DNA of 6,875 bases, taken from positions 15,695 to 22,569 of the forward strand of contig MGSU01000067.1 of NCBI GenBank assembly GCA_001799195.1, in the 5' to 3' direction. The stretch comes from Deltaproteobacteria bacterium RIFOXYA12_FULL_61_11 (GTDB taxonomy: Bacteria > Bdellovibrionota_F > JAHFAK01 > YA12-FULL-61-11). The position numbers and the translations under genes were made by a program. The notes below the pieces were generated by a model. It did not search any database and was not told the origin of the DNA. It saw only the letters and a list, made by a program, of their open reading frames with translations. Below, piece by piece: positions 1,779 through 6,875 of the stretch; within the stretch, counting starts at the first letter, position 1, and every line of letters begins with the position of its first letter.

Positions 1779-4631
1779 TCACTGCGGGGCTGCAACGCCG
1801 AACGAAAAATCCTCGGGCACCTCGAGCCGCAGCACGCTCCGGTAGTGGGAAGAGAGGTAGAGAACGTCCCCCGAGCCGTGGAGGTCGTAGATCTCCATCC
1901 CGTACACCCCTTGGTTGAGGTTGAGCACCCACTTCCAGGCTCCCTCAGATCGCAGCCACAAGTTGTCTTCGCCGGTCAACCAGAGGCGGCCGGATGCATC
2001 GGCAAAAAGCCGGTCCGTAGAAATTTTCCAGCCGTCTGGTGTGCGAGGCAGGTCGAGCCGATGCCAACCATCGTCGTCGAAGCGATAGTGGAACAACGGT
2101 TCTCCGGTATTCAGATCGCAGCCGGCCAGCAGCAGTCCGCCCTCAGGCTCCAGAGCGAGGGCGTTCCATATACACCTCGAGGGGTTATCGAGGTCCGGCG
2201 GCGGGTCCACCTCGGTGACCGAGGTTCCGGTGACGTGCAGCAAGGTGCTGCACGTTAAGCCGCCGAGCCACAGGTCGTCGGAGCCGTCCCCGGTCATGGT
2301 CTGGAGCAGGCTCGTACCCAGGTCCTGCGATTCACAGGAACCGTCGGGGGTGATACGCAGCAGGCGACCCTCGAGGCGATCGAGGATCACGAAGCTCGGG
2401 CCTTCTTCGGTGACGATGGAAGCCACGGCTTGCGGATGGAAGGACTGGAGACACGCCGGATCGAGCGCGAGGGGGGTGAGTTCCTCGCCGTCCCAGAGCG
2501 AGAGCTCTCCACCGGACGTCGCTGCCATGGCCAGGTCCGGCCCGGTCGCTGCCAGGAAGTCGAAGGCCGAAGCCCCCTCCCCACCCTCTTCGTGCCAACC
2601 CAACTCGTCGCGCCACAGGAAGAGTCCATCGTCGCCCACGGCGAAGGCGTGGGTCTCATCGACCGCCCGTACCGAGAACAAGCGGGAAAAACGGTCGAAG
2701 GGCGAACTGAACAGGGTCCATCCCGGGCCGATCAAGGTGCCGACGAGGCCCCCGGCGAACAGTCCACCGTCGTCCGGGGCCGCGAACAAAGCCCAGGGGC
2801 CGGGCTGGAAATCAGCCAGGTCGGGAACCAGGTCGAGGGCCCGGTGGGAAGGCTCGGATGCTGGCACGAAGCGGACCGCACCGTTCTCGTCGATGCTGAC
2901 AAGCTCCCCTCCGGGTAACGCGGTGAGGTCCATGAGGTTGGTGCCGTTCGAGGGCGTGAGCACGGTCCAGCCCCCGGATCCAAAGTGGAAAACCGCTCCG
3001 CCGCTTGCCAGAGAAAGTTCATCGGTTCCCTCGACGATCAGGGAGTGCATCGCACCCGCGCCCACGACCTCTCGATCGTCGATGCGCTCCCAACCCCCTA
3101 TCGCGGTGTGGCGAAGCACGACTCCTCCGTAGCCCGCGGCGAAGATTGCTGCTCCCCCCGTTGCTCCGCCTATCGAATACAAATCCCAGCCTGGACCGGC
3201 CGGAAGGGAGTCAAGATCCTGGACGAGCACCGAACCCGGGTCCTCGCTCAGGTCCGCCTCCGGGAGGTGATAGACCCAGGCTTCGGGATGTTCGTCATCT
3301 CCGAGGTGATGCAGAACGTAGCCCGGCGTGAAGGAGGCGAGGTCCCCGCGACTCTTGCCGCTTAGCCAGAGTTCCTCGGGGTCCTCGGCCCACAGCTCGG
3401 TGAGTTCTCCCACCCCGGGATGGCCGTTGAAGATCCTGTGGCAGCTCGGGGTGCCCTCGAGGAGAATGCAGCGGTAGATCGCTGCGCGGTCGAGTTGCCC
3501 ATCGTGTCCGGCGATCACGGCCGTGCCGTCTTCGAAGGCGGTGACCGCGATCAGATTGACCCAGGCGTCGACGTTGCCGGAAAGCCAGACCGTGCCGTCA
3601 TAGTGGAGGACCGTTCCCTGCCAACCGACGGCCCACACATCGCGGGAGGAGGTGCCGGAGAGGTCGAGGAGCAACGCGCCGCTCGGCCGGTTGGTTTCCC
3701 AGGAGAGGGCCATGAAACCGGGCGCCTCTGGCAACGAAGGTTCCGCGCTGACATCGGGGGGAGACGGTTCGATCGGTTGCGGTTCGTCGACGTCGGCGCT
3801 GGGTTCCAAGGGCGGCCCCTCTGGTTCGGACGGTTCAGGCGGAGGTCCCAGCGGCTCCGGGTCGGCCGAAGGATCGGAAACGGGTTCTCCAGGATCCGAG
3901 GAAAGGTCTCCTGTCTCTTCCGATGGTTGGGCTGGCACTGCTTGAGGGGAGGGGTCCACCGCGAGTGGACGGAAGGCCGCTTCGAGGTCGTCGAGGGCAA
4001 CCCCGGCGAGGGTGGGTTGCGGTCCGCCGCGTCGGAAGAGCACGAAGACCAACCAGACCGAGCTGCGACCGGCTAGGCCTTGTTCGGGAAGGTTCTCGGC
4101 CAGCAACGTCGTGAGCACGGACAGCTCTGCCTCGCTCCAGCGAGGTTCGAGGCGCTGCGGAGTACCGAGCAGGTCTCCCTTGGGCCCGAGGAGCAGGAGG
4201 AAACTGGACACAGTCCAAGCGACCGTTTCGTCCGCCACGAGCGAGAACCGGGGACGCAGGTACTTGGCCGAGGCCGGGAGGGCGCCGAGGAACTGGTCCC
4301 GCGGGAGGCCATGTTCCTCGAAGACCGAACCGGGTACGAGGACCTCGAGGGGGCCATCGAGGCGCACGGTCTCGCCGGTCTCGCCGAGGGTCAGCTCCAC
4401 GGCGAGGAGTACCCGCGAACCCTCGGGGAGGGAGAGGCCGAGCTCAAGGGCCTCGAGGGTCGCCTCGGTGGTCGCCGCTGTCCGCACGATCAGCGCGGTC
4501 GAGGTCGTGCCCCGGAGGGGTGAGGTAGACTCGAGTCGGGGAAGGTCCCCTGTCGTTCCGGTACCCTTTTCCGGAGCATGGTCGCAAGCGACGATGAGGC
4601 TGAAGAGCAGGAGGATCGGAATTCTAGGCAT
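1779..4631 (-). CDS. Large lipoprotein with Pro/acidic stalk and C-terminal beta-propeller-like repeats
   Basis: The predicted product has 950 residues. The N-terminus is a lipoprotein signal: hydrophobic ILLLFSLIVA followed by Cys16 (lipobox IVAC), with Asp at +2. Residues ~30-227 form an unrecognised, probably beta-rich domain. Residues ~228-304 are a low-complexity stalk of Pro, Glu, Asp and Ser. From ~318 to the end there are many degenerate repeats of the type [D/E]-hydrophobic-W/F-hydrophobic-x-G-x-x-G-x-hydrophobic-hydrophobic...GW, for example DVWAVGWQGTVLHYDG (331-346), AIFAAGYGGVVLRH, HAFAVGDDGLFLWRD, DLWLGG and RLWLTG. I count about a dozen, enough for two propellers or one large one. 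Such repeats usually bind proteins or glycans and are not catalytic. The start at ATG 4631 is decided by a perfect AGGAGG 7 bases upstream. An in-frame ATG at 4658 has no such site and would put nine residues before the signal peptide. It lies 32 bases after the beta-barrel gene and 13 before the SGNH-like gene. Family identity beyond 'lipoprotein with propeller repeats' is unknown. Confidence 0.9.
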   Translation of the reverse strand: MPRIPILLLFSLIVACDHAPEKGTGTTGDLPRLESTSPLRGTTSTALIVRTAATTEATLEALELGLSLPEGSRVLLAVELTLGETGETVRLDGPLEVLVPGSVFEEHGLPRDQFLGALPASAKYLRPRFSLVADETVAWTVSSFLLLLGPKGDLLGTPQRLEPRWSEAELSVLTTLLAENLPEQGLAGRSSVWLVFVLFRRGGPQPTLAGVALDDLEAAFRPLAVDPSPQAVPAQPSEETGDLSSDPGEPVSDPSADPEPLGPPPEPSEPEGPPLEPSADVDEPQPIEPSPPDVSAEPSLPEAPGFMALSWETNRPSGALLLDLSGTSSRDVWAVGWQGTVLHYDGTVWLSGNVDAWVNLIAVTAFEDGTAVIAGHDGQLDRAAIYRCILLEGTPSCHRIFNGHPGVGELTELWAEDPEELWLSGKSRGDLASFTPGYVLHHLGDDEHPEAWVYHLPEADLSEDPGSVLVQDLDSLPAGPGWDLYSIGGATGGAAIFAAGYGGVVLRHTAIGGWERIDDREVVGAGAMHSLIVEGTDELSLASGGAVFHFGSGGWTVLTPSNGTNLMDLTALPGGELVSIDENGAVRFVPASEPSHRALDLVPDLADFQPGPWALFAAPDDGGLFAGGLVGTLIGPGWTLFSSPFDRFSRLFSVRAVDETHAFAVGDDGLFLWRDELGWHEEGGEGASAFDFLAATGPDLAMAATSGGELSLWDGEELTPLALDPACLQSFHPQAVASIVTEEGPSFVILDRLEGRLLRITPDGSCESQDLGTSLLQTMTGDGSDDLWLGGLTCSTLLHVTGTSVTEVDPPPDLDNPSRCIWNALALEPEGGLLLAGCDLNTGEPLFHYRFDDDGWHRLDLPRTPDGWKISTDRLFADASGRLWLTGEDNLWLRSEGAWKWVLNLNQGVYGMEIYDLHGSGDVLYLSSHYRSVLRLEVPEDFSFGVAAPQ
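2233..2255. repeat. Perfect 10-bp inverted repeat with 3-base loop inside the lipoprotein gene
   Basis: ACGTGCAGCA (2233-2242) and TGCTGCACGT (2246-2255) are exact reverse complements separated by AGG. The structure lies within codons for the propeller region (residues around LTCSTLLHVT). There is no T tract on either side in either direction, so it is not an intrinsic terminator. It may be chance plus codon choice, or an mRNA hairpin. Confidence 0.8.
3720..3950 (-). repeat. Low-complexity coding region for the lipoprotein's Pro/Glu/Asp/Ser stalk
   Basis: This stretch encodes residues ~228-304 of the lipoprotein. It consists of irregular iterations of short units such as SDPGEP, SDPSADPEP, PPEPSEPEGPP and EPSPPD. 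The composition is strongly acidic and proline-rich, as expected of an extended, disordered spacer that lifts the C-terminal domain away from the membrane. Such tracts commonly vary in length between strains; that is general knowledge and is not shown here. Confidence 0.8.
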
Positions 4632-4636
4632 GGCGG

Positions 4637-4645
4637 CTCCTCCTC
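4637..4645 (-). promoter_or_regulatory. Strong ribosome binding site (GAGGAGGAG) deciding the lipoprotein start
   Basis: Read on the minus strand, GAGGAGGAG contains a perfect AGGAGG core at 4639-4644, 7 bases before the ATG at 4631. It lies in the 32-base gap after the beta-barrel gene and rules in 4631 over the in-frame ATG at 4658. It is the strongest translation signal in the operon. Confidence 0.85.
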
Positions 4646-4663
4646 GGAAAGGCTGCATGGCCC

Positions 4664-5392: not shown

Positions 5393-5418
5393 GTCCGATG
5401 AAGGGGCTGTGGCATGAT
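5389..5418 (+). promoter_or_regulatory. Weak candidate promoter (extended -10) for the radical-SAM gene
   Basis: TGGCATGAT (5410-5418) resembles an extended -10 element (TG-n-TATAAT, 4 of 6 in the hexamer). TCGAGT (5389-5394) is a poor -35, 18 bases upstream. If used, transcription would start near 5425, past the ATG at 5414, which would support translation from 5480. The -35 overlaps that of the divergent candidate promoter. Confidence 0.2.
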
Positions 5419-5479: not shown

Positions 5480-6688
5480 ATGCGCGTCCTCGTCGACACC
5501 AACCACCGTTGCGCCGGCAACAACCTCTGGTCGGCCCGACTCGCCGCCTGGGTGAGGGCCAACGGGCACGAGCTGGTCTGGGAGGTGGAACAGGCCGAAG
5601 TGCTCCTTCTCAATGCCTGCGGAGTAACCCATGAAGCCCAGGACCACGAACTTGCGCTCGTCGAGGCCTATCGGCGGCGTCTCCCCGGGGGAAGCAAAAT
5701 CGTGGTGTTCGGCTGCCTACCCGGCATCGCTCCGGAGCGGCTCCGTGGGGTCGAGGCGATCGGTTTTGCGGAAACGGCGCGGCTCGAGGCGTTGCTCGGG
5801 GGGACGGTCCCCCTCGAGAGCTTGCCCGCGGCCTCGGCGGGAGCCCCCATCGAGACGCTGAAAACTGCAAAAGATGGCCATCTCCGGGCAGAAGGTTTGC
5901 TCGTCGACGGTTGGCGCTCCCGGTTGCCCTTCCTGCTGCCCTCGCTCCTCGCCTACGCGCTGCCGCGGGTAAGGTCCCGGCTCGACAGGTTGTTGGTCGA
6001 ACTGGCCCTTGGCGGGCGAGCCCACCTCGAGATCGGTAGCGGTTGTTCCGCCCGGTGCAGCTATTGTCTCATCCGCAAGGCCAAGGGGAAGGTCCGCTCG
6101 CGCTCGATCGAGACTATCCTCCATGACCTGGACACCTTACCGCCGGAAGAACCCGTGGCCCTGGTTGCCGATGATTGCGGTTCCTATGGTCAGGACCTCG
6201 GCCTCGACCTCGTCCACCTGCTCGAGGCGATCGGCAAGCACCGTCCGGGTATCGCCCTTGATCTCACCTACCTCAACCCCGCTGCCCTGCTCACGCTCGA
6301 AGCGCGGCTCTTCGTGGCCCTACGCTCCGTGCGTTTGCGCAGCGCCGTGATCCCCCTGCAAAGCGGATCGGCCACAGTGCTGAAGGGCATGCGGCGCGAC
6401 TACGATCCGAACGAGGTCCTTGCCAGTCTGCATCGTTTGCGCGCCCTGCACCCCGAGACCGTGTTGGTGTCTCACCTCATCATCGGTTTTCCAGGTGAGG
6501 GGTGGCGGGAGTTCTTCCGCTCGGTGGCGACCCTCCCCTCTTACGATTTCACCGCGGTGTTCGCCTATGCCCCACCCGGACGGGCTTCTACCCACCATCC
6601 CTGGGATCGCTGCCGCGTGTTCGGGAGGTTAGCGTTCCTAACTCTGGTACAGAACCTCTGGTATTCCCTCCGCCTATTGCGGGGATGA
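5480..6688 (+). CDS. Radical-SAM methylthiotransferase-family protein (MiaB/RimO/MtaB/CDKAL1-like) lacking a TRAM domain
   Basis: The predicted product has 402 residues. Residues 1-~108 are the N-terminal methylthiotransferase domain, with its three cluster-binding cysteines: Cys11 (HRCAGNN), Cys47 (LNACGVT) and Cys79 (FGCLPG). Residues ~183-375 are the radical-SAM domain with CSARCSYC (Cys189, 193, 196), then DDCGSYGQDLG (231-241), PLQSGSATVLKGMRRDY (292-308) and GFPGE (336-340). Known relatives use two 4Fe-4S clusters to insert a methylthio group into tRNA adenosine-37 (MiaB, MtaB, CDKAL1) or ribosomal protein S12 (RimO). The D.GSYG.D.G and LNP motifs look most like the MtaB/CDKAL1 branch, but the substrate cannot be read from sequence. 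It is unusual in two ways. A ~70-residue segment between the domains includes hydrophobic LPFLLPSLLAYALP (149-162). After residue ~375 there is only a short hydrophobic/basic tail (ending YSLRLLRG) where a TRAM RNA-binding domain is normal. ATG 5480 fits the family N-terminus; an in-frame ATG at 5414, with AAGGGG 7 bases upstream, would add 22 residues. Confidence 0.88.
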   Translation: MRVLVDTNHRCAGNNLWSARLAAWVRANGHELVWEVEQAEVLLLNACGVTHEAQDHELALVEAYRRRLPGGSKIVVFGCLPGIAPERLRGVEAIGFAETARLEALLGGTVPLESLPAASAGAPIETLKTAKDGHLRAEGLLVDGWRSRLPFLLPSLLAYALPRVRSRLDRLLVELALGGRAHLEIGSGCSARCSYCLIRKAKGKVRSRSIETILHDLDTLPPEEPVALVADDCGSYGQDLGLDLVHLLEAIGKHRPGIALDLTYLNPAALLTLEARLFVALRSVRLRSAVIPLQSGSATVLKGMRRDYDPNEVLASLHRLRALHPETVLVSHLIIGFPGEGWREFFRSVATLPSYDFTAVFAYAPPGRASTHHPWDRCRVFGRLAFLTLVQNLWYSLRLLRG

Positions 6689-6738
6689 CCCTCGTCTCCA
6701 CCCCCTCCACCCGGGGTCAGAGGTCCGGATTTCGGAGA

Positions 6739-6771
6739 GTGACCGAAAACCGGTGACCGGAAATCGGTGAC
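6739..6771 (+). repeat. Three GTGAC direct repeats with exact 14-base period
   Basis: GTGAC occurs at 6739-6743, 6753-6757 and 6767-6771. The first two copies extend to GTGACCG, and the second and third are each preceded by CG (CGGTGAC). The interval between copies is A/T-richer (AAAA, AAAT). The period is not a whole helical turn (about 1.3 turns), so adjacent copies would lie on different faces of the DNA. Confidence 0.85.
6742..6768. promoter_or_regulatory. Interrupted 27-base palindrome, possible protein-binding site
   Basis: The pattern ACCGA-N3-CCGGT-N-ACCGG-N3-TCGGT is exactly symmetric in its twenty fixed bases, with the centre at 6755. It is superimposed on the GTGAC direct repeats. 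Such nested direct and inverted symmetry is typical of DNA bound by dimeric or multimeric proteins (transposase or repressor). Which protein binds it, if any, is unknown. Confidence 0.5.
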
Positions 6772-6844
6772 TTTAAGGCAAGGAAGGCGGCGCCGTACAA
6801 CGGAAACAACATGTTCCATCTCGGCATGAATCTTCCAATGCGCC

Positions 6845-6864
6845 CGGGGCATGAGAACGCCCCG
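6845..6864. other. Small inverted repeat CGGGGC/GCCCCG
   Basis: A 6-bp stem (6845-6850 with 6859-6864) encloses an 8-base loop. No T tract follows before the window end. In GC-rich DNA such short stems are common, so its significance is low. Confidence 0.25.
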
Positions 6865-6875
6865 CTTCGACATCA

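Follow-up and report, generated by a model that had tools for sequence, protein, structure and literature searches.

We have found that P0001, a protein of 402 amino acids encoded in the window analysed here (the whole stretch of 6,875 nucleotides, positions 15695-22569 of contig C67, which ends where the window ends), groups with a branch of TRAM-less, MiaB/RimO-related radical SAM proteins, and we regard it as about evenly poised whether it is a methylthiotransferase of that branch that modifies a small-molecule, glycan or lipid precursor. The separation of the branch from MiaB, RimO, MtaB and e-MtaB appears well supported by sequence comparison. Somewhat more tentatively, we suggest that this thinly spread branch as a whole may methylthiolate small molecules, glycans or lipids, not tRNA or S12, and that in the P0001 lineage an amphipathic helix may take the place of TRAM.

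Domain organisation of P0001

The open reading frame of P0001 runs from an ATG at 5480 to a stop at 6686-6688; an alternative, longer frame begins at 5414, and the family alignment favours the start at 5480. Pfam detects UPF0004 (E 3.6e-10) and Radical_SAM (1e-13) in the protein and gives no match to TRAM. The features of the window that concern us are as follows.

5480..6688, + strand: P0001, TRAM-less methylthiotransferase-family radical SAM protein, 402 aa (ORF and Pfam)
5510..5746, + strand: UPF0004 (auxiliary-cluster) domain, PF00919, residues 11-89, Cys codons at 5510, 5618 and 5714
5924..6010, + strand: hydrophobic/amphipathic inter-domain helix, residues 149-177, beginning LPFLLPSLLAYALP (linker length; low-confidence model)
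6029..6517, + strand: Radical SAM core, PF04055, residues 184-346, codons of CX3CX2C at 6044, 6056 and 6065
6350..6403, + strand: IPLQSGS to MRRDY (sequence motifs)
6473..6499, + strand: HLIIGFPGE motif, in which H332 is the mark of the branch (His in 31/31 members)
6599..6682, + strand: C-terminal hydrophobic/basic helix, where canonical proteins run on into TRAM (model and tail comparison)
6696..6875, + strand: multi-copy repeat, not part of the enzyme, reaching the contig end; its last 25 bases match the first bases of an IS200-like (Y1) transposase gene

The auxiliary-cluster cysteines are C11, C47 and C79 (spacing X35, X31), those of the radical SAM cluster are C189-X3-C193-X2-C196, and the motifs IPLQSGS (291-297), MRRDY (304-308) and GFPGE (336-340) are intact. 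An earlier note on this DNA had judged all six cysteines complete, along with the QSG, MRRDY and GFPGE motifs, and had seen a short hydrophobic/basic C-terminal tail in place of TRAM; both readings hold for the 402-residue protein, which looks catalytically competent. The same note's inter-domain insert is also real, since the linker of P0001, which contains LPFLLPSLLAYALP, has 109 residues as against 58-86 in 51 canonical proteins, and is the longest of the branch (range 64-109). This anatomy of domains, cysteines, linker and absent TRAM is well supported.

Published work defines the methylthiotransferase family by three domains (PMC5352715, PMC10702137). P0001 has the first, by its Pfam match to UPF0004 with C-X35/36-C-X32/33-C, with a spacing of its own that misses the textbook range by one residue but lies within the 26-35 of the 51 canonical proteins; it has the second, a radical SAM domain with CX3CX2C; and it lacks the third, a C-terminal TRAM. 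We therefore place it beside the family, as a TRAM-less variant, and not among its ordinary members. The MiaB/RimO family profile TIGR00089 ranks first among NCBIfam models (E 7.9e-45), yet its score of 153.4 bits falls short of the cut-off of 251, and the TRAM part of the profile is unmatched.

P0001 shares with RimO (the S12 aspartate methylthiotransferase, TIGR01125) the UPF0004 and radical SAM domains, the cysteine spacing, QSG and GFPGE, and its predicted structure matches RimO (PDB 4jc0) with Z 28.2, but it scores only 126 bits against a cut-off of 357, is without TRAM and has H332. The t6A methylthiotransferases MtaB and e-MtaB (TIGR01579 and TIGR01578) likewise have both domains (9a6d, Z 30.9), whereas P0001 scores 127.6 bits for MtaB (cut-off 357) and 123.3 for e-MtaB (cut-off 314.7) and lies outside both clades. 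MiaB (TIGR01574) has the same fold (Z 29-30), although P0001 reaches 96 bits against a cut-off of 355 and lies outside the MiaB clade. TRAM is missing from some MiaBs too: the MiaB clade contains TRAM-less proteins of 419, 398 and 381 amino acids (L145, L143 and L040), the first of them in a complete Velamenicoccus chromosome. Loss of TRAM thus need not change the substrate, and its absence is weak evidence of a different one.

Phylogenetic position of P0001

Our trees separate the branch members cleanly from the canonical proteins. The split keeps a support of 100 when the columns of the search motif are removed, with one clade apiece for MiaB, RimO, MtaB and the archaeal enzymes. A smaller, careful tree gives support of 100/99 to the branch and 99/96 to the pairing of P0001 with L111, an Omnitrophota protein that shares its long helical linker and tail. 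Against a profile of the branch built without P0001, the protein scores 241 bits, and the best canonical clade gives 150; masking the motif lowers the two values to 170 and 98. P0001 is a long branch in the trees, and an AU test leaves its placement with RimO unrejected (p 0.21 without the motif columns, 0.115 with all columns). Subject to that test, the tree placement proposed in the earlier note puts P0001 outside MiaB, RimO, MtaB and e-MtaB, and the outcome that would have spoken against the note's reading, a position inside a known tRNA-modifying clade that lacks TRAM, did not materialise, since the trees set P0001 apart from MiaB, MtaB and e-MtaB.

All 31 branch members have His just before xxxGFPxE, a position that is Asp in 36, Thr in 10, Ser in 4 and Ala in 1 of the 51 canonical rows. 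Because most members were found by this residue, which served as the search key for all but the first members, L060 and L094, we treat it as a mark of the branch and not as independent proof. P0001 has each of the characters of the TRAM-less His branch, namely no TRAM, His at this position and the branch profile as its closest. The six cluster cysteines are conserved in all 31 members and in the 51 canonical proteins, one gapped row at C11 excepted.

Relatives and distribution

A tblastn search of 386 genomes returned mostly canonical enzymes together with three short TRAM-less proteins (L030, L044 and L053), which also score below the TIGR00089 cut-off. A profile of P0001 and these three found L060, which led to L094, a protein 49% identical to it from another family. 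We then scanned 84,980 species genomes with a DNA pattern for MxRxY-23 aa-H[LI][IMV]xGFPxE, whose only matches among the loci then collected were P0001 and L030, L044 and L053. The scan gave 33 loci, two of which (L124 and L126) repeat the records of L053 and L030; the pattern is strict and misses members of other spacing, such as L060. Among the names in the record titles are Omnitrophota, Desulfobacterales, Bacteroidota, Clostridia, Hydrogenedentota, Nitrospirae, Bdellovibrio, Saccharibacteria, Dependentiae, Woesearchaeota, Micrarchaeota and Thermoplasmata. No TRAM is recognisable in the translations of the 33 loci (the 3' end of L099 being cut off), and Pfam detects none in the 31 full or nearly full branch members, making its absence a trait of the whole branch and not of P0001 alone.

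A profile of the 31 finds members in 6 of the 386 genomes, at 307-393 bits, with the next score at 282. On these searches the distribution of the branch is uncommon and patchy over bacteria and archaea. In each of the 23 member genomes tested there is also a TIGR00089 match above the cut-off. A locus-level search with P0001 alone as query found no relatives. Carriage by phages or plasmids was considered and set aside: tblastn matches there reach at most about 29% identity, the annotated ones are ordinary MiaB/RimO/MtaB-type proteins, and the motif pattern has no match in viral contigs.

Our searches of open-licence papers turned up no description of the branch, and nothing on it in work on sugar or peptide methylthiolation. 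Five methylthiotransferase families are recognised (PMC5352715). No title among the 33 motif-scan loci is from Campylobacterota, a count made with a pattern that demands the His and exact spacing. We take the fifth published family to be MTL1, of the epsilon-proteobacteria.

Neighbourhoods of branch genes

Branch relatives lie in biosynthetic and not in translation neighbourhoods. Glycan-type genes are found at many loci of the branch. A sugar-type cluster is common to the loci in genomes G188 and G144, with epimerases, transketolase halves, a GHMP kinase, a nucleotidyltransferase and a methyltransferase. Epimerases, glycosyltransferases, GHMP kinase, and FkbM and other methyltransferases occur at several branch loci, and several further loci have glycosyltransferases or B12-radical-SAM genes. 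Two distantly related genomes (L092 and L096) have in common a large sugar-biosynthesis cluster with branch members that are 49% identical, which suggests transfer.

A nucleotidyltransferase-like gene is common to six loci (L102:4471-7029, L106, L108, L110, L121 and L125), in which it forms a set with the TRAM-less enzyme and, in five, a P-loop kinase; no kinase is seen in L125, where the locus begins inside the enzyme gene. The hosts of this cassette are Clostridia, Patescibacteria and one archaeon. Another radical-SAM gene lies at the same locus in L111, L117 and L119 (with SPASM in L111 and L119), and also, with SPASM, in L091. Counting same-strand genes within two places, radical-SAM genes make up 9 of 77 neighbours of branch genes and 0 of 54 neighbours of canonical genes in the same genomes (Fisher p 0.010), an enrichment that is suggestive only, since related loci entered the statistic as if independent and the rules for choosing the two gene sets differed a little. 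Neighbourhoods vary among sub-branches, and some hold housekeeping genes (L105) or other genes (L103, L109).

The genome of P0001

The genome that encodes P0001 also holds a MiaB (430.5 bits, cut-off 355.3) and a RimO (401.8 bits, cut-off 356.95); its MtaB runs into a contig end and scores 184.8 bits over its first half. The separate canonical copies that the earlier note had proposed to look for are therefore all present, and P0001 is a fourth methylthiotransferase-like gene. The only other genome of the same phylum compared (G001) has no branch member. We also note that TIGR00089 matches 33 places in the genome at E <=0.001, most of them over the radical-SAM part only, so that the genome is rich in radical-SAM genes; two more lie on contig C67 (L018:181-2823).

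The immediate neighbours of P0001, a GDSL-like protein, a 959-aa protein and a divergent small protein, give no hint of its substrate. The 959-aa protein (1779-4658, - strand) has no Pfam match above cut-off, and the gene beside it (14-1795, - strand) is GDSL-like by sub-cut-off scores. The next gene is divergent, and only 187 bp of contig follow P0001. The conserved small-peptide neighbour that the earlier note had thought of did not turn up, there being no partner in the window among open reading frames above about 80-90 aa.

Predicted structure and the downstream repeat

The structure model of P0001 (pLDDT 83) matches MtaB, MiaB and RimO structures with Z 28-31 over 333-339 residues, Foldseek/VIA matches that we read as evidence of a shared fold only. 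In the model the insert is a helix (149-177), as is the tail (374-401), both at low confidence; the model of L111 (pLDDT 89) has counterparts at 143-161, 163-177 and 390-413 with better confidence. The earlier note's idea of membrane association fails as far as a transmembrane segment is concerned, since the hydropathy of the insert is too low for an anchor (best 19-residue mean 0.96, when canonical linkers reach 1.39). An amphipathic helix at the membrane surface is possible.

A frameshift or sequencing error near 6600-6690 that conceals a TRAM, the other outcome that would have undone the note's reading, can be rejected: Pfam finds no TRAM in the alternate-frame ORFs 6502-6756 (+) and 6565-6873 (-), and none is seen by eye in other frames. 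The stop lies 7 bp ahead of the repeat element. That element, which starts at about 6696, has three further copies in the genome, two of them at contig ends (C11 and C75); the internal copy (L028) stands ahead of a Y1_Tnp gene, and the opening 25 bases of that gene nearly equal window positions 6851-6875. The repeat may have trimmed a few residues from P0001. It does not explain the missing TRAM, because no relative has one.

Discussion

From the family mechanism (PMC5352715, PMC10702137) we strongly infer that P0001 would catalyse methylthiolation. A first SAM would methylate, by SN2 transfer, a sulfur on the auxiliary [4Fe-4S] cluster of C11, C47 and C79; a second would be cleaved at the cluster of C189, C193 and C196 to give a 5'-deoxyadenosyl radical, which would take a hydrogen from a C-H bond of the substrate, and the resulting carbon radical would pick up the methylthio group. 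The substrate would be a small-molecule, glycan or lipid-linked precursor and most likely not tRNA A37 or S12, and the extended amphipathic helix and the C-terminal helix may help to reach it instead of TRAM; both what the helices do and what kind of substrate is used we infer. Gene context argues moderately for a substrate that is neither tRNA nor S12. The earlier note's suggestion of a different substrate is plausible because P0001 belongs to a separate branch outside the known clades, has canonical copies beside it and has relatives in biosynthetic neighbourhoods; the part of that suggestion which leaned on the missing TRAM carries little weight on its own.

P0001 could instead have diverged from the tRNA (or S12) methylthiotransferases, with loss of TRAM, and modify another tRNA position, another set of tRNAs or an RNA with a partner. 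Its fold and active-site motifs are those of the tRNA enzymes, MiaBs without TRAM exist, recognition of i6A or t6A by MiaB and MtaB is reported not to lie in TRAM (PMC10702137), and six relatives sit in the cassette of kinase and nucleotidyltransferase-like genes. We nonetheless consider this unlikely, given that the genome already has all three canonical enzymes, that the branch stands apart in trees and is found in only 6/386 genomes, and that its relatives lie away from translation genes and adjoin other radical-SAM and glycan genes. Less probable still is another auxiliary-cluster chemistry (sulfur insertion without a methyl group, or C-C or C-H chemistry), which would suit the invariant His that replaces Asp, Thr or Ser before the GFPGE loop and the matches of other radical-SAM enzymes whose overall folds are related, MgmA and AprD4 among them (Z 21-23 against the P0001 model), but sits poorly with the retention of all three auxiliary-cluster cysteines and of the QS, MxRxY and GFPxE motifs. 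That P0001 is a decaying or truncated MiaB/RimO copy whose TRAM was removed by the repeat 7 bp after its stop is very improbable, for although the repeat's position, the long branch and a tail somewhat under the branch median (62 versus 76 residues after GFPxE) would fit, the gene has no frameshift or internal stop, its catalytic motifs are all intact, TRAM is missing from every branch member and the sister L111 has a similar tail length (72) and the same terminal helix.

If P0001 is a methylthiotransferase of small-molecule, glycan or lipid precursors, it would extend the substrates of the MiaB/RimO family beyond tRNA and ribosomal protein S12, the only ones known according to PMC10702137; the enzyme that makes 17(2)-methylthio-F430 was still unknown in 2023 (PMC10702137). 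A branch with the full sulfur-transfer machinery, no TRAM and a frequent position near glycan and other radical-SAM genes provides concrete candidates for the methylthiolation of other substrates.
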